From NCBI GenBank assembly GCA_013359135.1, contig JABWCN010000014.1, positions 1 through 64,000 of the forward strand: 64,000 nt of DNA, given 5' to 3'. Below, in pieces: positions 130-12,926 of this stretch; within the stretch, counting starts at the first letter, position 1, and each line of letters begins with the position of its first letter. The position numbers and the translations under genes were made by a program. Under the pieces are notes generated by a model, which was not told the origin of the DNA, did no database searches, and saw nothing but the letters and a program-made list of their open reading frames with translations. Origin of the DNA: Pseudobdellovibrionaceae bacterium (GTDB lineage Bacteria > Bdellovibrionota > Bdellovibrionia > Bdellovibrionales > Bdellovibrionaceae).

Positions 130-315
130 AAGGGTGACAAGGAAAATGGAATTGATATTGATCATTTTATTTTCAGCAAAAATGAGGGCGGATGTTTTAT
201 CATGAGGCATAAAGATGGATACCTTATTAATAATGCGATTCCACTTTGTCGTACATGCAATCGAAGTAAATCTGACAACGACTATAAATCTTTTTTCCAG
301 ATGATGTGCTTCTGA
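130..315 (+). pseudogene. HNH endonuclease remnant, 5' part lost at the IS junction
   Basis: An open frame begins right after the IS-end-like sequence and runs to a TGA at 313-315, giving about 61 residues without a convincing start codon. It carries an HNH-type C-terminal half: IDIDHFIFSKNEGG, then NNAIPLCRTCNRSK, then a DYKSFF tail. This matches the usual DH...GG...N..LC..CN..K pattern of HNH nucleases, with the last histidine replaced by Asn as in many CNRxK variants. The N-terminal CxxC half is absent. The simplest reading is that the insertion element split the gene and the rest lies beyond the element. It is called a pseudogene because neither a start nor an RBS is visible. Confidence 0.6.
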
Positions 316-482: not shown

Positions 483-3116
483 ATGAGCAGTAATAATAAA
501 AAATTATTCAAAAATTATATCCACTGTGAATATAAAGCGTATCTAATTCACATTAAACAAATTGAAGAATTGAATGCGCTAGAATTTCACTTTGCAAGAG
601 AGACTGAATATTACATTTCCTCCATCCCAGATAATATTGCACATCAAAAAATATCTACTAAAAATCAACAATCGAATGTTTTTACCCCAGTTGAATATTC
701 CACAAAAAATAAGATTGATATTTCACGTAAGATTGAACTTGGATATCAGGCAATTAATTCAGGCATTCCAGAAAAAAAATTATCAAAGTATGGTGTGATC
801 ATATATGGTCTGAAATATCTTAAAACAAAAATTCAATTGAAAAAATATAGCAATTTGGCAAAAAAAATTGCTGGTGAGGTTAGTAAAATTGAAAATGAGA
901 CGAACATTCCAGTATTCCGACTGTGTTCACACTGTCGAGTTTGCCGATTTCAGTCTTTTTGTAGGCAAAAAGCAATTCAAAGTGATGATTTAAGTTTAAT
1001 ATCTGGATTATCAAAAAAAGAAATTTTAAAGCTGAACAAACGTGGTTTATTCACTGTCACTCAGTTAGGCCATAGCTTTAGTCCGCAAAAACGTAGAATG
1101 AAGGCGAATACTAAACACTTATTTTCCCTAAAGGCTCTGGCAATAAAAGATAAGAAAATTTATGTGAATCATGTGCCTAAATTACCCTCTTCTCTAGTTA
1201 ATATTTGTCTTGATGTCGAAGGTCTTTTTGAAAACGAACTTTACTATTTAATTGGATTAAAAATTATAACTCCAAATGGATTTGAGGAAAAATGTTGGTG
1301 GGCAGATGGCGCTCTTGAAGAAAGATTAATATGGCAAAATTTCCTAGACAAAGTCTTAGCGTTTAAAGATTTTACAATTTTTCATTTTGGTTCATATGAA
1401 ATAGATTTTCTAAAAAAGATGTATGGAAAGTACGGCGGCTGTCTGGCCGATGATTATGAGAAAATTTGTAAATCGATGGTCAATATTCTTACGCTTTGCC
1501 ATCTAAATATCTATTTTCCAACATACACGAATGGGTTGAAAGATGTCGCTGGCTATCTAAACTTTATTTGGAATAGACCAGAAGCATCTGGGCTCATGAG
1601 TATTATTTGGAGAAAAAATTGGGAGAAAAGCGGAGACGACCAGTTAAAGCGTACCTTGATCCAGTATAATGCCGACGATTGCAATGCCCTTAGCGTTGTT
1701 GTTGATATGATCTATAAAATTATTGCGAATGCTGAGGTCAATACGGAAGATTTCATTCGAGCTGATAAAATGAAAAAGATAAACCAATATAGGTGGGGTC
1801 GAAATACCTTTGCCTCTACTGATTTTAACTACGTGAATCAGTGTGCATATTTTGATTACCAAAAGGCCAAGATTTATTGGCGTACAGATAATCGACTGAA
1901 AAAAAGGATTAAACTGAGGGAAAGAGAAGAGCGACGAAAGTATAGGCCCAATCAGTATATTACATTTTCGCGGCCTACCATATGCCCTCACTGTTCTCAT
2001 AATAAAGTAAATGTTCATGATAAAATTTCAAGAACGGTTATCGATCTCAAATTTACAAGAACAGGTATTAAACGCTGGATAGTGAACGGATCAGGAAATC
2101 GCTATCGTTGCGTGCGGTGTTGGAAGGTCGTATATCCGGCAGATTATTTTCAATCGAGCTTTATGTATGGTAGAAATCTAATGGTTTGGGTAGTTTATTT
2201 AAGCATTGGATTAAAAATTTCCCATGAGAGTATCTTGAATTCATTAAATGAAGCATTTGGATTTCGATTTAATAATGATTTTGTTACACGGTTTAAAACT
2301 GTTTTTTCAAAATATTACAACGAAACTTATGAGGAAATAAGGGAAAATATTCAAAAAGGAAATCTTGTTCACGTTGATGAAACACGAATCAGCATTCGTG
2401 GTGCCACCGGCTATATTTGGGTTTTCTCAAATTTCAAAAATGTCTACTATGCTTATTCAGAAAGCCGAGAAGGAAAAATTCTTCAGGAAACTCTTGGTCC
2501 ATTTAAAGGGGTTTTAATTTCAGATTTTTTTGCTGCTTATGATTCAATTGAGTGTCCTCAGCAGCGATGCCTTATACATTTAATTAGAGATGTAAATGAT
2601 GATTTTTTGAAACACCAGTTCGATAAGGAATTCAAGACGCTTGTTGAAAGTTTTGGGCAATTAATGAAAACTATAATTGAGACTGTTGATAAGCGCGGTT
2701 TAAAAAAATACTTCCTTAAAAAGCATCTTCGTGATGTCGAGCGATTTTACAAAAATGTTGTTGATAAAGAAGCTACCTCAGAAATGGTTTTGAAGTATAA
2801 AACACGCTTTCAAAAGAACCGGCAAAGGCTTTTTACCTTCCTAACTTATGATGGTGTTCCATGGAATAATAATAGTGCGGAAAATGCTATCAAAGGTTTT
2901 GCTACCTTTAGAAGTCTGGTCGGTGGCCTATCCACTGAGATATCAATTAGGGAAAGCTTAATTCTTCTAAGTGTGGCACAAACATTAAAAAACAATGATG
3001 CTAGCTTTTTGAAGTTTATGAAAGCTGAGGAGAAAAGTATTAATGCTTTTTTAAGTAAGGAAAAAGGTTCAAATTTTGCATTTCGACGAATGCCAAAGAA
3101 AATAAAATCAACATGA
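483..3116 (+). CDS. TM0106-type RecB/RNase-H-like nuclease fused to an IS66-type DDE transposase
   Basis: An 877-residue protein with two halves. Residues 1-165 resemble the RecB-like part of TM0106-family nucleases, including a four-cysteine cluster (C148, C151, C154, C160). No clear PD-(D/E)xK active site is visible, and the region looks shortened. Residues 168-195 look like a helix-hairpin-helix. Residues 240-412 form an RNase-H-like exonuclease domain with LDVEG (D244, E246), HFGSYE (301-306) and YNADD (395-399). A basic linker and a zinc ribbon (C501, C504, C543, C546) lead into an IS66-type catalytic domain with VDET (D632), SDFFAAYD (D681) and NNSAENAIKGF (E800), so the DDE triad is intact. 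IS66 tnpA/tnpB partners are absent and no convincing terminal repeats flank it. Only 18 bp separate it from the convergent PIN gene. It could be a self-mobile element or a domesticated nuclease-integrase. The domain calls are firm; the function is not known. Confidence 0.85.
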   Translation: MSSNNKKLFKNYIHCEYKAYLIHIKQIEELNALEFHFARETEYYISSIPDNIAHQKISTKNQQSNVFTPVEYSTKNKIDISRKIELGYQAINSGIPEKKLSKYGVIIYGLKYLKTKIQLKKYSNLAKKIAGEVSKIENETNIPVFRLCSHCRVCRFQSFCRQKAIQSDDLSLISGLSKKEILKLNKRGLFTVTQLGHSFSPQKRRMKANTKHLFSLKALAIKDKKIYVNHVPKLPSSLVNICLDVEGLFENELYYLIGLKIITPNGFEEKCWWADGALEERLIWQNFLDKVLAFKDFTIFHFGSYEIDFLKKMYGKYGGCLADDYEKICKSMVNILTLCHLNIYFPTYTNGLKDVAGYLNFIWNRPEASGLMSIIWRKNWEKSGDDQLKRTLIQYNADDCNALSVVVDMIYKIIANAEVNTEDFIRADKMKKINQYRWGRNTFASTDFNYVNQCAYFDYQKAKIYWRTDNRLKKRIKLREREERRKYRPNQYITFSRPTICPHCSHNKVNVHDKISRTVIDLKFTRTGIKRWIVNGSGNRYRCVRCWKVVYPADYFQSSFMYGRNLMVWVVYLSIGLKISHESILNSLNEAFGFRFNNDFVTRFKTVFSKYYNETYEEIRENIQKGNLVHVDETRISIRGATGYIWVFSNFKNVYYAYSESREGKILQETLGPFKGVLISDFFAAYDSIECPQQRCLIHLIRDVNDDFLKHQFDKEFKTLVESFGQLMKTIIETVDKRGLKKYFLKKHLRDVERFYKNVVDKEATSEMVLKYKTRFQKNRQRLFTFLTYDGVPWNNNSAENAIKGFATFRSLVGGLSTEISIRESLILLSVAQTLKNNDASFLKFMKAEEKSINAFLSKEKGSNFAFRRMPKKIKST

Positions 3117-3134
3117 CATTGCTTTTGAGTAATT

Positions 3135-3674
3135 TTACTTTTTGTGTAAATTTCTTTCCGTTATACCAGAGTTGATATACTGTCTTGCATAGGCTTCAAG
3201 AAACTCATGTCTTAAGTTTTTTACGATTCCATTTTGTCCAGAATCTTTAAGAAGTTTTTCAAATGAAATGAGGTTGAAAGTTTTATTGATTACTGCCGTC
3301 GCTTTGATTGCTGACTTATCACCTGAGCAAAATAGATATTCATCAAAGCTACCGGAGTTCAAAAGTGTGATGGCGTCTCTTTCTCCTGGATCAAGACCCT
3401 TGACGAATACTTCTTTGTAATCTTGAAAGATTTTTTGAGTGTGTGATAACTCCGGATCCAGGCGCCGAATTTTTCCTTCTGATTCGGATTTTTTTAAGTC
3501 GATATCGGTTTTTATTCCGGTCTGGCTTTGAAAGTGTTTTGCCTCATCATCAATGACAATTCCAACAATGCAGACATCAAATTGATTTATTAAATGCGTC
3601 CATATTCCAAGCTCGTGAGAATGAATAATGACGTTGGCATCTAAAATAATTAACTTACGCTTGGATTGGCTCAT
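3135..3674 (-). CDS. PIN-domain protein, probable toxin ribonuclease
   Basis: The predicted 179-residue protein shows the acidic pattern of PIN-domain nucleases: LILDANVII near the N terminus, then LDPGERDAI, then FCSGDKSAI. PIN proteins are metal-dependent RNases and usually the toxin of type II pairs. The ATG at 3674 was chosen because the residues upstream of it in the longer frame do not resemble the family. This start lies inside the end of the XRE/ImmA gene (20-nt overlap), which implies translational coupling. Context supports a toxin-antitoxin-like unit, with the protease-bearing regulator made first. Confidence 0.75.
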   Translation of the reverse strand: MSQSKRKLIILDANVIIHSHELGIWTHLINQFDVCIVGIVIDDEAKHFQSQTGIKTDIDLKKSESEGKIRRLDPELSHTQKIFQDYKEVFVKGLDPGERDAITLLNSGSFDEYLFCSGDKSAIKATAVINKTFNLISFEKLLKDSGQNGIVKNLRHEFLEAYARQYINSGITERNLHKK

Positions 3675-4755
3675 TAAGGTCGTATGCTGTAAGTAGGGTT
3701 GGTAAGTCAATGAGGCTAACACCTACAATTTGCGCAAGTCGAGCCTTAGAAATTTTATCTTTTTGATAAGCAAAGAATGCAAGACGAACTAATTTTTCAG
3801 AAAACTTAATGGATGTTTCTTTTGAAACAGATTCTCTGTGAATTTCTGAAATCAATTTTTTGGCATCATCTTTTGAAAGACAACCAAAATTAAGTAATCG
3901 ATAAGCAGTAGCTTCAGTTGAAACTTTATATTTACTGCTTAAAACCATTAAGTCAGCCGGAGCAAGCTTTCCACCCTCAATAATTCGTCTGAAATCGTCT
4001 TTTAAATCTTCTGCTGGCATCAATAGGCCTGCCGCAAAATTTTCAGCAAGTTCTTCATTTCTTTTATCAAGAGCTGGATCTGATTTGATTTGTTTTAATA
4101 CAGCAGGGTCCCAAGTGATTAAATGGTACAGCTCGTGTGCCAAATTATAATTTTGCCGCCATAAACTTTCTTTTTTATTGATCATAATTGCGACAGAAGA
4201 ATCATCTCTAGTGCATGCGGCGGAACTGTCACCCAAGTCTTCATACAAAACTTTAACGTCAAAATCTTCCTCCAAGCAGCTTTGTAAAGCAGAAGAGGGC
4301 TGGCCGCCTAAATTAAGAGTTTTTCTAACCTCTTCAGCAACCTCATGGGCGTCCTCGTAGCTAGTACTAGATGGATTGAGAGAGAAAATAGGCAGCGTCC
4401 TGCGTATTTTTTTATTCTGATTCAATACCTCTTCTAAAAAGGAATAGTTTTCAATAAATGAGTGCAATTTATTTTCAAGCACAGTCTTTTGAGCCGAGGT
4501 AGGCTCTTTTCTCCAGAAGATTAATGATTTCTGAGGTTGAGTAAATTCACCCAAAAGAAATCCAATAGAAACACCAAGAGCCTCTGCAATTCTTTGCAAC
4601 TCTGTAGTTTTTAAATCTTTACGCTCTCCTCGCTCGATTTTTCCAAGAGTTTGGTAGCTTTCAATTTTTGCTTGGGATGCCAACTCGTCCTGAGTGAGAT
4701 TTCGCTTTTCTCGTTCATCCTTGATCCGAGCCCCTATTTCTAACATGTTAGACAT
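3655..4755 (-). CDS. XRE-type regulator with ImmA/IrrE metallopeptidase domain
   Basis: A 366-residue protein. Residues 6-70 form a Cro/C1-type helix-turn-helix (ERNLTQ-like helix, then YQTLGKIERGER). Residues about 150-260 form an ImmA/IrrE (DUF955) zinc-protease domain with NLAHELYHLI (H207, E208, H211) and a downstream EELAENFAAGLLMP segment supplying the third ligand. Such proteins usually bind their own operator and cleave or hold a partner. A strong GAGGTGA SD lies directly upstream of the chosen ATG. The PIN gene overlaps its 3' end. A perfect inverted repeat lies about 60 bp upstream and is the likely operator. It is probably the antitoxin/regulator of this pair. Confidence 0.8.
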   Translation of the reverse strand: MSNMLEIGARIKDEREKRNLTQDELASQAKIESYQTLGKIERGERKDLKTTELQRIAEALGVSIGFLLGEFTQPQKSLIFWRKEPTSAQKTVLENKLHSFIENYSFLEEVLNQNKKIRRTLPIFSLNPSSTSYEDAHEVAEEVRKTLNLGGQPSSALQSCLEEDFDVKVLYEDLGDSSAACTRDDSSVAIMINKKESLWRQNYNLAHELYHLITWDPAVLKQIKSDPALDKRNEELAENFAAGLLMPAEDLKDDFRRIIEGGKLAPADLMVLSSKYKVSTEATAYRLLNFGCLSKDDAKKLISEIHRESVSKETSIKFSEKLVRLAFFAYQKDKISKARLAQIVGVSLIDLPTLLTAYDLNEPIQA

Positions 4756-4815
4756 TAGTCACCTCAGATACTCTATATTGTTGTAACATATATCACTATT
4801 ATCGGAATATTTGCA

Positions 4816-4844
4816 ATAAAATACAATGAATTATTGTATTTTAT
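4816..4844. promoter_or_regulatory. Perfect 12-bp inverted repeat, candidate XRE operator
   Basis: ATAAAATACAAT and its exact reverse complement are separated by the five bases GAATT. It lies about 60-90 bp upstream of the XRE/ImmA start codon, within promoter range. XRE regulators of this kind normally bind palindromes in their own promoter, so autoregulation is inferred. Confidence 0.55.
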
Positions 4845-5015
4845 CAAATTGGGTCGCGTATATTCGATTTGAGCATGAAACTAGACTCAATTGCTCCGGG
4901 TAGGTCTTTTTGACGGCTATCAAAAAGAAAACTCAGATTTTTTTGTATAATATCAATGCCAAACAAAAATCTTGCCGAAATCTTTAAATTTTTATAGTTT
5001 CAAGTCTGTGTGGTG

Positions 5016-5032
5016 CAGGAGTTGTACTCCTG
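5016..5032. repeat. Orphan hairpin (7-bp stem, 3-nt loop)
   Basis: CAGGAGT-TGT-ACTCCTG is a perfect stem-loop. On the plus strand it is followed, five bases on, by a run of seven T (5038-5044), as in an intrinsic terminator. No plus-strand gene ends nearby, so its role is unclear. Confidence 0.35.
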
Positions 5033-5117
5033 AGCCATTTTTTTCTGACCTTCCCAATAAATTGGTTCTTCTCATTTAATCGTATATCACAGAGGGCGCT
5101 TCAGTAAAAACAAGCGT

Positions 5118-5399
5118 TTAGTTAGCTTTCTTTTTAGATGAGCATCTGTTCTTATGACAAAAAGGAACATAGCCAAATATTTTTGAAAATCCACAACTGC
5201 TTTTTAAGCAAAAACCCTCATCAGAAGCCTTATTGGATTTTACCCACTCGGTGTTCACATTAACTTCTCTGCAAAAGGAACAAATTATTTTACAATCTGA
5301 ATCGACTTTGCATGAACTCCATTCCTTTTTGACTATGTTTTCCTCATTAGCCCAAGTTGCGGTCTTGGTTAATAAAATTAATATCAACAAAATTTTCAT
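5118..5399 (-). CDS. Small secreted cysteine-rich protein
   Basis: A 93-residue product. It starts with a short signal peptide (MKILLILILLTKTATWA) and has eight cysteines in the mature part, several in closely spaced pairs such as CKVDSDCKIICSFC. This suggests a disulfide-stabilised periplasmic or secreted protein. I recognise no family. It is a stand-alone gene downstream of the S1 protease on the same strand, about 100 bp away. Confidence 0.55.
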   Translation of the reverse strand: MKILLILILLTKTATWANEENIVKKEWSSCKVDSDCKIICSFCREVNVNTEWVKSNKASDEGFCLKSSCGFSKIFGYVPFCHKNRCSSKKKAN

Positions 5400-5501
5400 T
5401 AAAGATGATCATATCTTTGCAAGATATATCAGTAAATAAAGAAAATAGTTTTTTCGGCCAATCAATACATCACACCAAATCAGTTTGGTTCAGTTTTATA
5501 G

Positions 5502-6479
5502 TTATTCCCAACTAAGAATGAGATCCTTAAGTTTTTTCAAACATTCAGGAATCAGTTTACCACTACCATCAGTACAATTTGCTAAAGGTAATATAGGACT
5601 AAAGTAAGTAAACCCGTCAACAATAAAACTGTTGACCCCAATAAGTTGTCCCAATGAATTACGAACATACCCTCCAGACATACCGCCAACCATAGTACAG
5701 TTTGTTCTTGTCGAGTCCACAGAAATATACTTTGAGTCCCAATCCAATCCAACGTTTTTCGGTTTAGTATAGTAATTTTCCTTGCTAAGGATTTTACATT
5801 CTGCTTGGTGGAAAAAAGCTGATTTGTAGAAACTATTGTTAGGAATTCCGTAAACTCGTATGTTTTCTCCAATTTTAGAAGGCTCAGTACTTAGAATTGG
5901 TGGAAGCTGCCCCTCTGGATAAATGAGATCAGCATAAGTTTGGTTCATTTCTAGAACAGCAAAATCTACAAAATCAAATGAAGCAAAAATAATTCGTTTT
6001 AGATCTATATGGGACATAGACGATAAAAACTTTTTTTGTGTTATAGGATCTTCAACCCATAATTTTCTATCGCGAGGAAAAGAAAAGAAAATTGTATTGG
6101 GCTTTAATAACTGGTCAACATAAACTTCTTTTGGCTTCAAATGTGTATGTTTAATAATATGAACACAATGTCCAGCAGTTAAAACTAAAGCTCTATCTGT
6201 TGGCTTATAGCCAGGCAAAGCAAACACACCACCTGTACAAGGATAATCATAAGCGCGTATTTCTCCGGCCCATTCAAAAGGATTATCTGAAGACATTTTC
6301 ACTACTTTTAGATTTGTTTTATGAGGAATTTCTTCACTTCTTAAACAACATGATTCCTGTTCAGGTAAGCTATTACCGGTATCATCAAAATATTGTGCCT
6401 CTGAGATTTGAATCCCAAAAAAGAAAATTATAGCTAAGTAAAATTTTGTCTTAAAAAAATTAACCACAAGTGAATTCAT
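5502..6479 (-). CDS. Secreted trypsin-like (S1/V8-type) serine protease
   Basis: Counted from the ATG at 6479, the 325-residue product begins with a signal peptide ending about ISEA-Q. It carries the S1 triad: LTAGHC (His104), VDFAVLE (Asp172) and GGMSGGYV (Ser268). The usual GDSGG motif has become GMSGG, so the Asp that pairs with the new N terminus in trypsin is missing, as in V8-like enzymes that activate differently. A TTG at 6512 would add 11 residues; neither start has a good SD. Likely an exported degradative enzyme. No operon partner is visible. Confidence 0.75.
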   Translation of the reverse strand: MNSLVVNFFKTKFYLAIIFFFGIQISEAQYFDDTGNSLPEQESCCLRSEEIPHKTNLKVVKMSSDNPFEWAGEIRAYDYPCTGGVFALPGYKPTDRALVLTAGHCVHIIKHTHLKPKEVYVDQLLKPNTIFFSFPRDRKLWVEDPITQKKFLSSMSHIDLKRIIFASFDFVDFAVLEMNQTYADLIYPEGQLPPILSTEPSKIGENIRVYGIPNNSFYKSAFFHQAECKILSKENYYTKPKNVGLDWDSKYISVDSTRTNCTMVGGMSGGYVRNSLGQLIGVNSFIVDGFTYFSPILPLANCTDGSGKLIPECLKKLKDLILSWE

Positions 6480-6611
6480 TTGATTTACAAAAAAATTGAT
6501 CAAACTTTTCAAAATACACTCATAAAAGTATAAAAAGTGATTTTAATTTTGAACATGTTTTTCACTCCATTTTTTTGCTGTATCAACTCAATTAGAATCA
6601 GTCAAGAAGGT

Positions 6612-6634
6612 AAAAGTAAAAGTCTCAAAAGACT
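6612..6634 (-). terminator. Possible intrinsic terminator after the 119-residue secreted protein gene
   Basis: On the minus strand AGTCT-TTTG-AGACT is followed by TTTTACTTTT. The stem is only five base pairs and lies about 110 bp after the stop, so the call is weak. Confidence 0.3.
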
Positions 6635-6742
6635 AAGTGCTATTCTTTTGAAGACTCTTGTTTTTCTAAAAAACTTAATAGTAAAGTACAAACATTTTGA
6701 GTATTATTTGGTTGATTTAATTTGGGTATTTATAGTTAATTT

Positions 6743-7102
6743 TTATTTAGTTGGTATGACTTTACATCCAAGATTGGTTAAACGACCTATACCAAAAATA
6801 GTTCCAACAACATTGTATTTTACCACATAAGTGCCGTCTTCTTCTATTACACCGAACTCAAGTCTATTTAGTGAAATCATTTTAGCTTCATCTTCATCTC
6901 GTGCAAAAACTTGAATAATCCGAGAAATTGTTGAATTTCCATTTGCCGTTTTTTTGTTGTAGCCGAGTTCACCAGAAATTTCACATTGATATGCTCTAAA
7001 GTTTACGTCTTTATATAAATCTGATGCACTAATTGGTCGTGCATTTAAAGTTAGAGACGATAATAACATGTTAAATAATCCAAGAATTAAGTACCTTTTC
7101 AT
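6743..7102 (-). CDS. Small secreted protein of unknown function
   Basis: A 119-residue protein with an N-terminal signal peptide (about residues 1-21, ending LNARP or a little later) and a compact mature part with two cysteines (YQCEISGELGY and NLGCKVIP) that could form one disulfide. The ATG is preceded by AGAGGAGAAACTTGT, a strong SD at normal spacing. No family is recognised. Confidence 0.6.
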   Translation of the reverse strand: MKRYLILGLFNMLLSSLTLNARPISASDLYKDVNFRAYQCEISGELGYNKKTANGNSTISRIIQVFARDEDEAKMISLNRLEFGVIEEDGTYVVKYNVVGTIFGIGRLTNLGCKVIPTK

Positions 7103-7357: not shown

Positions 7358-8011
7358 ATGAAAAAAATTGGGCTTCTGTTTGATTGTGATGGGACTTTGG
7401 TGGATTCTTTAGGACTTGCTAAAGAGTCTTTTGAATATGCTCTTAATTTTGTTGGAGAAAAACGAAGCTATGAAGAGGTGAAGAGTTTTTTTGGAGCTGG
7501 TGCTGATAGAATTTTTATGAATCTGTTGCAAGATAAAAAAAAATCCCAGATAGCTTTTGATGCCTTTTTGAATCATCAACAAAGTTTAGCGTGGAAGACC
7601 AGACTTCATAATGGAATTCGTGATTTATTAGTGAATCTAGCGTATTCAAATATAACTATGGGAATTGTTACTGGCAGACATTCTCTTGATTTGAATATTA
7701 TTTTAGAGCCACATAAAATCAAAAAATACTTTGATGTTGTGATCGCTGATAGTGATGTTCTTCACTCAAAACCTGCACCGGATGGACTTCTTTTGGCAAT
7801 AAAAAAAATGTCTCTAAAGCCGGAGGACGTGTTTTATATTGGTGATTCAGTAACAGATATGCAAGCAGCTCAGCGCGCTGGATGTAAGGCTATTGCTGCA
7901 GTTTGGGATTCCGCGACGAGCTCAAAGATAATGCTAGAAGTAAAGCCAAACTATATTGCTAATACGCCCTTTGAAGTTTTGGATTACGTAAAAAAACATT
8001 TAATGATCTAG
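7358..8011 (+). CDS. HAD-family phosphatase, phosphoglycolate-phosphatase-like
   Basis: A 217-residue HAD subfamily IA hydrolase. Motif I is FDCDGTLVDS (D9 nucleophile, D11 acid/base), motif II is VTGRHS, motif III includes the Lys of SKPAPD, and motif IV is YIGDSVTDMQAA. The cap lies between motifs I and II, as in Gph and pyrophosphatase PpaX. Substrate cannot be fixed from sequence. The stop codon abuts the end of the convergent DAC-like gene. No clear SD precedes the ATG. Confidence 0.85.
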   Translation: MKKIGLLFDCDGTLVDSLGLAKESFEYALNFVGEKRSYEEVKSFFGAGADRIFMNLLQDKKKSQIAFDAFLNHQQSLAWKTRLHNGIRDLLVNLAYSNITMGIVTGRHSLDLNIILEPHKIKKYFDVVIADSDVLHSKPAPDGLLLAIKKMSLKPEDVFYIGDSVTDMQAAQRAGCKAIAAVWDSATSSKIMLEVKPNYIANTPFEVLDYVKKHLMI

Positions 8012-9064
8012 TTAGGATAAACGATCTTCAGAGGCCCCCAATTCAATATGACCATCTTGAGACTTATACAAAACAGCAGCTAGCTCATGATTTAAATATT
8101 TACAAAGAGCACTGAAAGCTCTTTTTCTAGCCCCTCCTAAAACAGCATCTTTAGTTCTTTGAAGCTGAAGAGAGTTTTTAATAAAACAATTGTAAGCAAT
8201 GATGGAACCTTCAGTATTTAATACCGTTATCCCATCCATTCCTGTCATCATCGAAAGTAAATGATTCCAAGCGAGTAATTTTTGAAAATCTTCAATGTTG
8301 TTAGAAGCCAAAAATTGAGCAATACCAGCAGAAATTAAAATTGGCTTATCCAAAATAATTCCATCATGAAAAATTTCAGGTACTGGGTACTCTTTATTAA
8401 CAACAGCTACAAGAGTGCCATGAGTTGCATGCAAAATATTAACTCCAACACGATAATAAAATAACTCTAAATGAGACTTAATTTCTTCATTTGCTCCAGA
8501 GGTGAGATGTTTCGTAAAATTTCTAATAAGCTTGGGTGGATTTGCTGACTCATCTGAGTCACCCATTAAATTGAGATACTGAAATTCTCCATTGTTAGCC
8601 CTTAGTTCAATAAAATTTCCACCAAGCTTACTGATGCCGACAATGTTTGAGTCTTTTGATTTTGCTTGGCGAAGCCTTTCAAATGGAGTCGGACTTAGTG
8701 GAGATAAATCATTCAGAAAAATACCGTAATGCAATTGGGATTCACTATCAATAAAATAGACGGCCCATTCACGGCTTTCGGCAAGGGGTGGATCCTTAGC
8801 ACCGTGCCCAACAGGAACATTATTTTTACTGTGGGTTAGACTCATTAATTCCTTTAAGTCTTGAGCTAAGAAGACTGCTGGAAATAACTTGGTACCCTCC
8901 TCTTGATAAGAAGAAATGAGCAGGATTAATTCTGACAATAAATCTTTAATAGTTTCTGAATCTTTGAAAGATTTTATAAACGTCGCAATATTTAGCTGTA
9001 AATAACTTCTAAAGGATAAAATATGTAAAGCTCCAGGTGAAGTGGCCACAAAATCTCCAACCAT
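8012..9064 (-). CDS. Protein with a C-terminal DisA/CdaA-like (DAC-fold) domain
   Basis: A 350-residue protein. Its last 150 residues resemble the diadenylate-cyclase fold: ILHATHGTLVAVV (210-222), MDGITVLNTEGSIIAYNCFI (276-295) and GGARKRAFSAL (310-320), followed by a VLYKSQDGHIEL strand. Active c-di-AMP synthases carry DGA and RHR; here they read DGI and RKR, so catalysis is doubtful. It fits better with the predicted sensor relatives of the DAC domain (DACN-type) described for bacterial signalling proteins. The N-terminal 200 residues are unrecognised and soluble. It is monocistronic, convergent with the HAD gene and divergent from psd. Confidence 0.6.
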   Translation of the reverse strand: MVGDFVATSPGALHILSFRSYLQLNIATFIKSFKDSETIKDLLSELILLISSYQEEGTKLFPAVFLAQDLKELMSLTHSKNNVPVGHGAKDPPLAESREWAVYFIDSESQLHYGIFLNDLSPLSPTPFERLRQAKSKDSNIVGISKLGGNFIELRANNGEFQYLNLMGDSDESANPPKLIRNFTKHLTSGANEEIKSHLELFYYRVGVNILHATHGTLVAVVNKEYPVPEIFHDGIILDKPILISAGIAQFLASNNIEDFQKLLAWNHLLSMMTGMDGITVLNTEGSIIAYNCFIKNSLQLQRTKDAVLGGARKRAFSALCKYLNHELAAVLYKSQDGHIELGASEDRLS

Positions 9065-9207
9065 TCTATTTTAACATAGACAACGGTACAAACATTAAAA
9101 AATTGAGTTGAACATAATAATGCGACTTTGATCCTATACATATTCAGGATTTTTTGATGACATAAGGTGAGACTATTTCTAGCATTAGGAAACTGTAGGA
9201 TTGTAAA

Positions 9208-9999
9208 ATGTTAAAGGTATTTGCTAATTTATTTTGGGTTAAGTTATCTGCGGAGCTTCAGAAACGAATATCTTCAGTTTTTGCTTTTATGTGGACAACA
9301 AAGTTTTCACGATTTGTTATTCTTCCATATTGTTGGCTGTTCAGTCTAGACTCAGATTATTTGGAGCAATTTGAGTCCGAAGCACAGAAAAATAGATATA
9401 GTTCCTACTCTGATTTTTTTGAAAGAAGGTACAAAAAATTTCCTCAAATTAAGAGTTCACAAGTTTGGCCTTGTGAGGGATATGTATGCGATTGGGGAAT
9501 TTTTAATGAAAAAACAGATTCTTTAGTCAAAGGTCAAAGATTAGATTTAAATTCTATATTTCAATCAGACCCTAAAGACACACAAGAGCATTACTTTGTA
9601 AATATTTTCTTACATAACCACAACTATCACAGAATTCACGCTCCAATTTCAGGGAAAATATCTAAGATAAAAACCATTCCCGGTAATTTGTTCTTTTTAA
9701 GGCCATGGTTTTATAAAAAAAATGATGTTTCTTTTCCTGCCTTTAAAAATGAGAGAGTGGTTATTGAAGTAAAAGATCAATCATCACAGACTTGGTACTT
9801 AGCTATGGTCGGAGGTTTTGGAGTTGGTACTATAGAAATAAATTCCAATACTTTGGTTGGACGTAATATAGAAATAGGTCAAGAGCTTGCAAAGTTTAAA
9901 CTAGGCTCTACAGTGTGTATAGCTTCACCTAAAAGTATTACTATCGCTGCTTATCTGCAAAAAGTTCAAGCCGGTGAAACGATAAAAGTTCGAACTTAA
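9208..9999 (+). CDS. psd: Phosphatidylserine decarboxylase
   Basis: Makes phosphatidylethanolamine from phosphatidylserine at the inner membrane. The 263-residue proenzyme carries the family landmarks: NYHRIHAPISG (H141, H144), MVGGFGVGTIEI, and the LGST cleavage motif (Ser234), whose serine becomes the pyruvoyl group. The N-terminal acid motif, usually DG, reads PCEG here (E90). The first 50 residues contain a hydrophobic stretch that probably attaches it to the membrane. An SD-like AGGA lies 8-9 bp before the ATG. A DUF4337-like gene follows after 21 bp, so they may be co-transcribed. Confidence 0.85.
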   Translation: MLKVFANLFWVKLSAELQKRISSVFAFMWTTKFSRFVILPYCWLFSLDSDYLEQFESEAQKNRYSSYSDFFERRYKKFPQIKSSQVWPCEGYVCDWGIFNEKTDSLVKGQRLDLNSIFQSDPKDTQEHYFVNIFLHNHNYHRIHAPISGKISKIKTIPGNLFFLRPWFYKKNDVSFPAFKNERVVIEVKDQSSQTWYLAMVGGFGVGTIEINSNTLVGRNIEIGQELAKFKLGSTVCIASPKSITIAAYLQKVQAGETIKVRT

Positions 10000-10020
10000 T
10001 TAGATTTTATGTGAGGTTAT

Positions 10021-10626
10021 ATGTCGGAAATTTTAGAAAAAATTGATATATCAAAGGAAAAGAGTTCCATGGAAAATGCTTGGCTAAATAATGCAATAGC
10101 TGTGATTGTAGCCTTGTCAGCATCCTTTATGGCTGTTTTTAATATCAAAGATAATAACATCGTGCAATCTATGTCGCAGGCTCAGGCTCAAGTGATTGAT
10201 TCATGGACATATTTTCAGGCGAAAAGTACGAAACAAAGCATTATTGAAAATCAAATTTCTCAATTGGAAATGCAAATGCTAACAACTGCAAACCTAAGTC
10301 CTTCCTCTCAGCAAAAATTTATTGCTAAGATAGACGAAGCAAAAATTAAAGTTGATAAATATGAGAAAGAAAAAAATGAAATCAAAGCTCAAGCAGAAGC
10401 CTTCCAAAAAGAGTATGATGAGCTCAATACTCACGATGATCAGTTCGATTTGGCAGAGGCATTAATTTCATTAGGATTATCAATCTTTGGTATTACTGCA
10501 TTAACTCAAAAGAAGGTCCTATTCTATTTTGCTATAGTTTTGAGTAGTGTTGGCGTTTTCTTTGGAGTTGCTGGTTTTTTAGGATGGAGTATTCATCCTG
10601 AGGGTCTAACTAAATTATTGAGTTAA
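10021..10626 (+). CDS. DUF4337-like membrane protein
   Basis: The 201-residue protein has an N-terminal membrane segment (about residues 24-42). The family-like string SQAQAQVIDSWTYFQAKSTKQ follows, then a coiled coil (about 75-140) and two C-terminal membrane segments (about 143-160 and 163-190). This order matches DUF4337 proteins, whose function is unknown. An SD (GTGAGGTT) precedes the ATG. It is sandwiched between psd and a small membrane-anchored protein, all with short gaps. Confidence 0.7.
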   Translation: MSEILEKIDISKEKSSMENAWLNNAIAVIVALSASFMAVFNIKDNNIVQSMSQAQAQVIDSWTYFQAKSTKQSIIENQISQLEMQMLTTANLSPSSQQKFIAKIDEAKIKVDKYEKEKNEIKAQAEAFQKEYDELNTHDDQFDLAEALISLGLSIFGITALTQKKVLFYFAIVLSSVGVFFGVAGFLGWSIHPEGLTKLLS

Positions 10627-10643
10627 TCAAAAAGGACACGAGC

Positions 10644-11360
10644 GTGGGAAAAAATTGGAAAATGTACATTGGATTTTTTTTGTTGATTTTTACTGTTGTT
10701 GTCTTGAATCGTTTTTCTCAAACAAGTTCTCAGCGGGAACTTTTATTAAAAAAAGTTTTTTCAGTTGATGGAATTCCTGCTTCTGGTGAGTGGCCGTGGG
10801 GAAACCAAAAGTGGACTTTCTATAAGGAGAGTAAAAGTTTTGTTTTTAAAAATACTCTTTGGTTTATTTTAAAATCTGAAAATAATGAAACGCCAACAAA
10901 TTATTATAGTTATTCATTGATTCAATTTCAAAAAGGAGAAGTTTTATTCAAAGAAATGCCTTTTTTAAATTTTGACAAAAATTTTACACCTAAGTTTGAG
11001 CTTAGAAAGATTTCTTCTGAGGTTGAGGGTTTATTCTTGGTCCGTGAAGATTGTCAGCTTGATTTTTGTAAAGAGATACTGAGTGTGTATTCTGTTGCAA
11101 ACAATCAACTTTTAGAAATAGGGCGAATTCTTTTATCCGATAGTAATTTGAGTAACTGCAAATTACAAAACACTCAGTGTTTTGAATTTAAAGGCACCTA
11201 TCAGTTAGAAAAACACCCAGGAAGTACTTTTCAAAATATTAGGGTGATGTTTAAAGGCTTCGAAGAGAATCAAAAAAAAGAAACCCAAAAAATAGCTGAT
11301 GAAGTTTATACCTTTGAAAACGGTAAATTTGTTTCAGAGTCGTTTAAAAAATATCATTAA
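10644..11360 (+). CDS. Membrane-anchored or secreted protein of unknown function
   Basis: The 238-residue product starts at GTG (AAGGA seven bases upstream), with one N-terminal hydrophobic helix (about residues 7-22) and a soluble, mixed extracytoplasmic part. A pair of Cys (DCQLDFC) and another (SNCKLQNTQC) could form disulfides. No family recognised. It lies 17 bp after the DUF4337-like gene and probably belongs to the same transcript. Confidence 0.55.
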   Translation: MGKNWKMYIGFFLLIFTVVVLNRFSQTSSQRELLLKKVFSVDGIPASGEWPWGNQKWTFYKESKSFVFKNTLWFILKSENNETPTNYYSYSLIQFQKGEVLFKEMPFLNFDKNFTPKFELRKISSEVEGLFLVREDCQLDFCKEILSVYSVANNQLLEIGRILLSDSNLSNCKLQNTQCFEFKGTYQLEKHPGSTFQNIRVMFKGFEENQKKETQKIADEVYTFENGKFVSESFKKYH

Positions 11361-11552
11361 TAAATTCTTTAGTTTCTTGTAGCAAAAAAGTACTATTATA
11401 TTAATTTATGGACAAAATAAAAATTTGCATTGCGCTAGATAAAAAATAGATTTGAATTCATGGATAAAAAATATGTTAATTCTTTATCGGTAGGGGAATT
11501 TAAATTAATTTTAAATCATTTACAAAAGTGATTTAAGTAAGTGAGGGGTTAA

Positions 11553-12926
11553 ATGAAGTTTTTATTTGTGTTTTTTTCTTTGGTACTAGCCTGTTCTGCA
11601 TTTTCACAATCTAAGCAAGATGTTCCAGGCGAGTTTTTAGTCAGATTTCAAGGACCTTATAATCCGCAGTATGCCATGTCATCGTTGCAATCACAGGGTT
11701 TAAGAATTAAAGAAGTGATTTCTAAGTCACTAAATTTATATTTAGTTCAAGGTGCTAGATCGACAAAAGAAGGACTTGGAGCTGCGTATAGAACAAGAGG
11801 TGTGGCATATGCTCAGCCAAATCATTATGTTTTTTTAAGAAATCAAAGAAATCCTTTATTTAGAGGTTTACCTAATGATCCAGAGTCGGGAAAACTGTGG
11901 AATATGATGGAGAGCGCTCAAGGCGGTATGGCTGCTTCACAAATTTGGACTTCGACTGTAGGTGGTAAAGATAAAGGTGGTAATGAGATTGTTGTTGCTG
12001 TTATCGATGGTGGATTTGATCTGACTCACGAAGATTTAAAAGAAAATATTTGGGTTAATAGACAAGAAATCCCAAACAATGGAAAAGATGATGATGGGAA
12101 TGGATACGTTGATGATATAGTTGGTTGGAATGCTTTTGATAATACTGGAAAAATTAAAGTAGACATGCATGGAACTCATGTAATGGGAATTATTGGAGCT
12201 AGAGGTAACAATGGTAAAGGTGTTCATGGGGTTAATTGGGATGTGAAGATGATGGCTATTTCAGGTGCCTCAGGAACAACAGCTACGGTAGCCAAAGCTT
12301 ATGGATACGTTATTGATCAAAAGAAACTATGGTTTCAGTCTAAAGGACAACGAGGTGCAAATATTGTAGCTACGAATTCAAGTTTTGGAGTTGATAATGC
12401 TAATTGCACTTCAGGTGAGTTTCCGGTGTGGAATGATTTATATGAGCAAATGGGACAACTTGGAATTATATCTGCAGCAGCAACTGCAAATAATAATGTA
12501 GATGTTGACCGAGTTGGAGATGTTCCTACAGGCTGCGCGAGTGAATACATTGTAGCTGTTACCAATACCACGCAACAAAACACTAAGTATAACAGTGCTG
12601 GCTACGGATTGAAGACTATTGATATTGGAGCTCCAGGGACAAATATCTTGTCAACGCTTCCAAATAGCAAGTATGGTAATTTAACCGGAACTTCCATGGC
12701 TACTCCACACGTTGCAGGTGCTGTGGCTTTAATTCATGCTGCTGCCAATGAGGCTTTTTATCAAAGATATGTTACACAGCCTGCTGTAGCTGCTCTGGCG
12801 ATCAAACAGGTTTTACTGGCTGGTGTTGATCCTCTTCCTTCTTTGCAAGGTAAAACAGTTTCTGGCGGAAAAATGAATGTTGGTAAATCTGTTCAAATGT
12901 TAAATACTGCAAGATGGAGAAATTAG
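11553..12926 (+). CDS. Secreted subtilisin-like (S8) serine protease
   Basis: A 457-residue preproenzyme. A signal peptide (about 1-18) is followed by an I9-type propeptide (GEFLVRFQG to about residue 92). The catalytic domain has VVAVIDGGFD (Asp152), MHGTHVMG (His206) and TGTSMATPHVAG (Ser381). The oxyanion-hole region usually reads AAGN but here reads SAAATANNNVDVD, so one of the Asn near 313-315 must take that role. It is stand-alone with a GAGGGG SD and ends in a strong terminator. Such exported proteases are plentiful in predatory bacteria; a role in prey or protein digestion is inferred. Confidence 0.9.
   Translation: MKFLFVFFSLVLACSAFSQSKQDVPGEFLVRFQGPYNPQYAMSSLQSQGLRIKEVISKSLNLYLVQGARSTKEGLGAAYRTRGVAYAQPNHYVFLRNQRNPLFRGLPNDPESGKLWNMMESAQGGMAASQIWTSTVGGKDKGGNEIVVAVIDGGFDLTHEDLKENIWVNRQEIPNNGKDDDGNGYVDDIVGWNAFDNTGKIKVDMHGTHVMGIIGARGNNGKGVHGVNWDVKMMAISGASGTTATVAKAYGYVIDQKKLWFQSKGQRGANIVATNSSFGVDNANCTSGEFPVWNDLYEQMGQLGIISAAATANNNVDVDRVGDVPTGCASEYIVAVTNTTQQNTKYNSAGYGLKTIDIGAPGTNILSTLPNSKYGNLTGTSMATPHVAGAVALIHAAANEAFYQRYVTQPAVAALAIKQVLLAGVDPLPSLQGKTVSGGKMNVGKSVQMLNTARWRN

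Follow-up and report, generated by a model that had tools for sequence, protein, structure and literature searches.

The window, a stretch of 64,000 nucleotides that begins a contig of a Pseudobdellovibrionaceae genome, carries at positions 483 to 3,116 of the plus strand one uninterrupted open reading frame (ORF) of 877 amino acids (aa) in which a nuclease half is followed by an IS66-type transposase half. A search of the genome's contigs found no other gene of either family, and the fusion is present there in a single copy. In Pfam, the protein matched PF13482 (RNase_H_2) at aa 241 to 410 (1e-22) and PF03050 (DDE_Tnp_IS66) at aa 561 to 816 (1e-29; 104.3 bits versus a cut-off of 23.1), together with a weak match to Cas4 at aa 10 to 160. 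In NCBIfam, TIGR03491 (TM0106) matched at aa 43 to 408 (9e-50) with 170 bits versus a curated cut-off of 97.45, and NF033517 (transpos_IS66) matched at aa 483 to 847 (1.5e-52), its 178.9 bits narrowly missing the cut-off of 180. The two model collections thus bear out an earlier note, made from the letters alone, that had read the locus as a nuclease and an IS66-type transposase in one 877-residue frame.

An AlphaFold2 model of the window protein was built on a 51-sequence alignment. Its mean pLDDT is 86, and a floppy linker of low pLDDT at about aa 433 to 484 (positions 1,779 to 1,934, plus strand, as are all domains given here) parts the two halves, near the place where identity drops among relatives. 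The N-terminal domain (aa 1 to 217; positions 483 to 1,133) is Cas4-like by alignments and by its Foldseek match to the CRISPR Cas4 structure 8d3l (E = 2e-3), which was also the only match in a profile search of PDB sequences. It is followed by a predicted DEDD-type 3′–5′ exonuclease domain of RNase H fold (aa 238 to 427; positions 1,194 to 1,763), which holds the PF13482 match; with VIA-align, aa 236 to 435 superposed on the proofreading exonucleases of family B DNA polymerases with Z values of about 14 to 16. Behind the linker lie a zinc ribbon formed by C501, C504, C543, and C546 (positions 1,983 to 2,120), which falls inside the IS66 model match, and an IS66-type DDE core with D632, D681, and E800 (positions 2,163 to 2,930), which holds the PF03050 match. 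The C-terminal part is matched by Foldseek to the fold of the ISCth4 transposase (6xgx; E = 5.7e-8). The modeled architecture is, in order, Cas4-like domain, DEDD 3′–5′ exonuclease, zinc ribbon, and DDE core.

Conservation of the active sites was assessed in 69 sequences. The exonuclease residues D244, E246, and D399 and the DDE triad are essentially invariant, position 306 is either E or D, and the four cysteines of the zinc ribbon are conserved in 61 to 69 of the 69. Because both active sites are invariant across this set, both activities appear to be under selection. The earlier note had described the acidic motifs and the DDE triad as intact, and they are so throughout the family; its four-Cys cluster is likewise present, as the Fe-S-type cysteines C15, C151, C154, and C160 that the alignments show to be kept in the Cas4-like part. 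Its description of the nuclease as RecB/RNase-H-like stands for the RNase H-like portion, whose DEDD 3′–5′ exonuclease residues are intact, but not for an active RecB-like portion, since that part has a Cas4-like fold from which the PD-(D/E)XK catalytic residues have been lost. Stand-alone and helicase-fused TM0106 proteins keep the D..(D)xK residues that are missing from the fusion clade, and the loss is therefore specific to that clade. Given this loss, the working nuclease is most likely the DEDD exonuclease, as judged from the alignments. The Cas4-like domain of the window copy is about 36 aa shorter than those of its relatives.

On the left, the contig starts with a fragment of an IS3-like element (positions 1 to 133), read by eye as an element end with the start of a minus-strand orfA-like frame, MKQYTPEFKEQIIKEVS; the genome has related copies of this fragment on its contigs C39, C66, and C89. 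Next to it is the remnant of an HNH nuclease gene (positions 130 to 312, plus strand; PF01844, E = 0.0019, below the curated cut-off), which belongs to the left flank and is not an element end. On the right, positions 3,135 to 4,755 of the minus strand hold a pair of genes for a small PIN-like protein (identified by eye) and an HTH-IrrE regulator, recognized with Pfam and by comparison with congeners. This flank is common to two congeners from position 3,135 onward, 19 bp past the fusion stop, and in both of them the PIN-like/IrrE block adjoins a tRNA fragment (also labeled by eye). An empty site was not found in the congeners, which have the PIN/IrrE block alone in common with the window, and the search of the window copy found neither direct repeats bounding it nor element ends. 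Farther to the right, the intergenic stretch at positions 5,011 to 5,121 is repeated on contig C85 of the genome and in genome G012 (contigs C65 and C90); it is not a tRNA according to ARAGORN.

Two cyanobacterial plasmids encode relatives that share the architecture over more than 90% of its length, each annotated after one half only, and database entries for proteins of the family are generally titled after just one of the two halves. When GTDB genomes were scanned with an alignment of three sequences, 99 relatives came up, 80 of which were fetched. They are rare and scattered over about a dozen phyla, including Nitrospirota, Nitrospinota, Acidobacteriota, Planctomycetota, Verrucomicrobiota, several proteobacterial lineages, Cyanobacteria, Bacteroidota, and KSB1, with one Parcubacteria metagenome-assembled genome (MAG) and one Thermoplasmatota MAG as further hosts; binning of MAGs may be wrong in single cases. 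Among these, the copies in the Thermoplasmatota MAG (L059) and in an Akkermansia muciniphila MAG (L078) sit on short contigs, which may reflect either horizontal transfer or binning error. The full fusion is present in 1 of 100 genomes from the close circle of the window, namely, the source genome itself, in 1 of 340 genomes of its phylum, and in 6 of 245 genomes of a cyanobacterial order. Most other TM0106 proteins of the phylum are encoded by frames of about 1,140 to 1,240 aa, and the one inspected closely is a helicase fusion. No relatives of the fusion were found in viral and phage collections, and a full-text search of open-licence papers returned no description of the architecture.

All 51 aligned members have the same order and junction, and PF03050 and NF033517 both match every one of them at an E value of ≤0.01. 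Since order and junction recur in this way, a sequencing or assembly artefact at the junction is excluded; nor are the halves always separate in homologs, the other outcome that would have spoken against the fusion as first described, for they occur together in all 51 members tested. In a tree of the nuclease half, all fusions form a single clade at a support of 100 and are separated from TM0106 proteins that stand alone or are fused to a helicase; in a tree of the transposase half they again form a single clade at 100, with 19 stand-alone IS66 transposases outside it. That each half forms one clade implies a single fusion event; the family is an old one. Two fusion genes lie adjacent on one contig (L034 and L042), and in Bradyrhizobium barranii (L088, positions 7,701 to 11,936) an IS256-family insertion breaks the fusion gene near codon 760.

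The copy number and the ends of the gene were then compared with those of insertion sequences (ISs). Genomes carry one to three fusion copies, copies within a genome share only about 63 to 79% DNA identity over long stretches, and none of the genomes compared holds near-identical ones, versus about 30 near-identical copies of an ordinary IS66 in Bradyrhizobium genome G124. A scan of about 80 loci with 24-bp windows for terminal inverted repeats (TIRs) with target duplication, which is 8 bp long in the IS66 family, revealed no consistent pair; matches were at chance level, except for a palindrome in the Verrucomicrobia loci L039 and L078. There, the 24-bp palindrome-like AGCCGACGTGAGGAGGCTC occurs in several copies and in both orientations, scattered around the fusion. 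No IS66 accessory ORF adjoins the window gene, and tnpA and tnpB are also absent from the recurrent neighbor clusters of relatives, and the lack of accessory genes and of convincing terminal repeats noted earlier was seen in the relatives compared as well. Neighbor clusters and a Pfam tally of neighbors gave no partner gene conserved across the family, Cas1 and Cas2 were absent from the recurrent clusters and from the neighbors tallied, and the fusion itself matched no known defence family apart from weak Cas4-like matches. Being rare, present in one to three divergent copies, and free of consistent TIRs, the fusion family does not behave like a proliferating IS.

In seven relatives (L022, L030, L032, L040, L058, L069, and L072), direct repeats of a gene 3′ end bound compact segments that contain the fusion; about 7 such loci compare with 39 whose flanks reach 1.5 kb or more on either side. 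In L022 and L058, both from Nitrospirota, the fusion and a HigBA pair lie, in this order, between a complete comM and a second comM 3′ end of ~150 bp, the two 3′ ends being 76 to 80% identical. The insert of L069, whose fusion lacks its first ~36 codons, is bounded by a 25-bp exact repeat at comM; once 3,604 bp, namely, the insert with one of the 25-bp copies, is taken away, comM reads in frame again. The L030 segment runs from an intact tRNA-Gly through the fusion and an AbiEii gene to 30 bp repeated from the end of that tRNA. In L040, a tRNA-Gly-like end stands at either side of the fusion and UPF0175/PIN genes, with a tyrosine integrase directly outside the element; L072 has a thrS 3′ end at either side of MNT-HepT, the fusion, and Uma2; and L032 has a 38-bp tRNA fragment at either side of the fusion, DUF4143, and VapC-like genes. 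A toxin-antitoxin pair is thus usual inside these segments, which hold, with the fusion, HigBA, AbiEii, UPF0175/PIN, MNT-HepT, or VapC-like genes. As a rule it is the fusion that adjoins the duplicated gene end, and searches of the segments revealed no recombinase of the tyrosine or serine type, no integrase, and no resolvase.

Of the six tRNAs recognized by ARAGORN in the loci, four lie within 700 bp of the fusion and point their 3′ end toward it, more than expected (P = 0.005, at a distance chosen post hoc); with a looser motif, tRNA fragments showed no significant enrichment near the fusion (P = 0.13). The repeats of L057, L067, and L075, which resemble leftovers of other transposons or promoter regions present more than once, were left uncounted. 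An identical 12-bp AAAGCACTTACG stands right after the tRNA 3′ end in L030 (positions 7,477 to 7,488) and L040 (positions 2,192 to 2,203), loci of two phyla, and is possibly an element-end signal; its 68 matches in a viral scan, none in a tRNA 3′ context, were uninformative. Other relatives occupy different surroundings. Two are plasmid borne, with a conjugative plasmid among the contexts, and in L045 (positions 1,861 to 7,020) the gene lies within an integron cassette array, with canonical attC sites (GCCTAAC...GTTAGGC) at about 1,874 to 1,971 and 6,920 to 7,022 and a partial one at 9,918; the fusion's stop is about 50 bp ahead of an attC.

The comM site further allowed insert and host to be compared at fourfold-degenerate sites. 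Among the four Nitrospirota hosts (L021, L022, L058, and L069), host comM is 26 to 45% identical at these sites, versus 52 to 81% for the nuclease half and 55 to 85% for higB. Since nuclease half and higB outscore comM, the unit arrived at the same site after the hosts had diverged; in Nitrospirota, horizontal transfer has brought nuclease half and HigBA to the 3′ end of comM more than once. In L096 and L052, the fusion-HigBA unit is found without an intact comM beside it. The transposase half (aa 481 to 855) behaves differently, with 81% identity between L021 and L069 versus 26 to 33% in the remaining comM-site pairs, which shows it to be a module that has been exchanged, its boundary lying close to the linker. 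Identity in relatives drops from about aa 416 to 480, placing the linker near the exchange point, and cyanobacterial and verrucomicrobial pairs show similar dips centered on the zinc ribbon. In the pair L015 and L070, DNA similarity ends within a few bases of the fusion ORF.

The comparisons show the fusion itself, its conservation, single origin, horizontal spread, and low copy number, and the exchange of its transposase half. Our tentative reading, to which we give somewhat less than an even chance, is that the fusion is the recombinase of small integrative elements (about 3.5 to 8 kb) carrying a toxin-antitoxin pair. In such elements, the zinc-ribbon/DDE half would bind the element and carry out strand transfer, the DNA to be joined would have its 3′ ends trimmed by the exonuclease, and a tRNA or protein gene would receive the insertion at its 3′ end, which would be duplicated; the window copy would be one such element whose ends are lost or invisible, lying as it does at a contig start with an IS fragment on its left. 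A recombinase would explain why the compact elements hold no other one, why the fusion sits beside the duplicated gene end and entered one site repeatedly, and why both active sites are conserved jointly. The reading is weakened by the small share of repeat-bounded loci among those with good flanks, by the integron-cassette and plasmid contexts, by the shortened fusion of L069, by the nonsignificant tRNA-fragment test, and by the failure to find such repeats around the window copy. Moreover, long imperfect repeats of gene 3′ ends mark tyrosine integrases rather than DDE enzymes. An integrase may act in trans or have been lost, and a tyrosine integrase lies directly outside the L040 element. 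The comM site is shared by different transposase halves, so target choice may lie outside the DDE half. The fuller proposal, an undescribed recombinase in which a DEDD exonuclease and a DDE enzyme insert toxin-antitoxin elements site specifically at tRNA, comM, and thrS 3′ ends, with exchangeable DNA-binding/DDE modules and an independent, CRISPR-like "trim then integrate" strategy, is doubtful.

Nearly as likely as a recombinase is a domesticated cargo enzyme, perhaps an anti-phage or anti-plasmid nuclease, that other recombinases move on islands, plasmids, and integron cassettes, its exchangeable zinc-ribbon/DDE half setting which DNA is attacked. The single or few divergent copies per genome, the patchy distribution, the toxin-antitoxin and defence-type neighbors, the tyrosine integrase adjoining L040, and the exchange of middle and C-terminal modules at an unchanged site all fit such a role, as do the very contexts that weaken the recombinase. 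However, cargo of this kind has no conserved partner gene here and no match to known defence families beyond the weak Cas4-like ones, and it leaves the compact elements with no other recombinase found inside; the fusion is usually beside the duplicated end. The earlier suggestion of either a new class of mobile element or a domesticated enzyme therefore stands as a pair: relatives do lie in small elements at gene 3′ ends, and cargo contexts occur too, but IS-like proliferation is not seen. An ordinary IS66-group IS of the ISBst12-like, transposase-only kind whose transposase acquired a nuclease domain, and whose normal short inverted repeats and target duplication went undetected, is improbable. 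The IS66 models do match all 51 members, DDE triad and zinc ribbon are kept, and the abrupt end of similarity between L015 and L070 indicates that the gene can move alone; set against this are the lack of a consistent TIR with target duplication in about 80 loci and of near-identical copies of the kind that the Bradyrhizobium IS66 displays. Least probable is entry of comM- or tRNA-piece segments by a single crossover in homologous recombination, with the fusion as a passenger: a complete comM with a ~150-bp 3′ end on the far side, as in L022 and L058, is what such a crossover leaves, but repeats of 76 to 80% identity are poor RecA substrates, and the repeats at other targets, in L030, L032, and L069, span just 25 to 38 bp.

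If active, the fusion would be a single-chain enzyme that trims and joins DNA, of an apparently undescribed architecture, and possibly a DDE enzyme in site-specific insertion, a role thought to be reserved to tyrosine and serine integrases. It would account for genes misannotated as "TM0106 nuclease" or "IS66 transposase," and the module exchange amounts to a natural experiment on the recognition target of the transposase half.

Among known systems, integrative mobilizable elements (IMEs) and genomic islands of tyrosine integrases at gene 3′ ends share with the fusion elements the 3′-end duplication, the usual restoration of the gene, the small size, and the toxin-antitoxin cargo, but no tyrosine or serine integrase was found inside the latter. 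According to a review of IMEs, gene-sparing insertion with repeats at gene 3′ ends belongs to tyrosine integrases, whereas the two DDE-type IMEs known, MTnSag1 and tISCpe8, carry inverted repeats of 25 bp and show little target specificity (PMC5704250). With IS66 TnpC (PF03050 and NF033517), the fusion shares the DDE core, the upstream zinc ribbon, and the C-terminal layout; unlike TnpC, it sits behind an exonuclease, has neither accessory genes nor recognizable ends, stays at low copy, and branches as a clade of its own, apart from the 19 stand-alone IS66 sequences compared. ISBst12-type members of the IS66 group also do without tnpA and tnpB. The TM0106 RecB-like putative nuclease (TIGR03491, COG2251) has the same order of Cas4-like and DEDD domains, the same cysteines, and the same DxE ... 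YNxDD motifs; that family is otherwise stand-alone or fused to an SF1 helicase, whereas the partner here is a transposase, in a clade that is separate at 100 and has lost the PD-(D/E)XK residues. CRISPR adaptation differs in that its integrase is Cas1 rather than a DDE enzyme, the Cas4 site of the fusion is dead, and no Cas1 or Cas2 is among the tallied neighbors. In the way it would work, however, the fusion resembles Cas4 or a DnaQ-like exonuclease acting with Cas1-Cas2, as a Cas4-like domain and a 3′-trimming exonuclease are coupled to an integrase in both.
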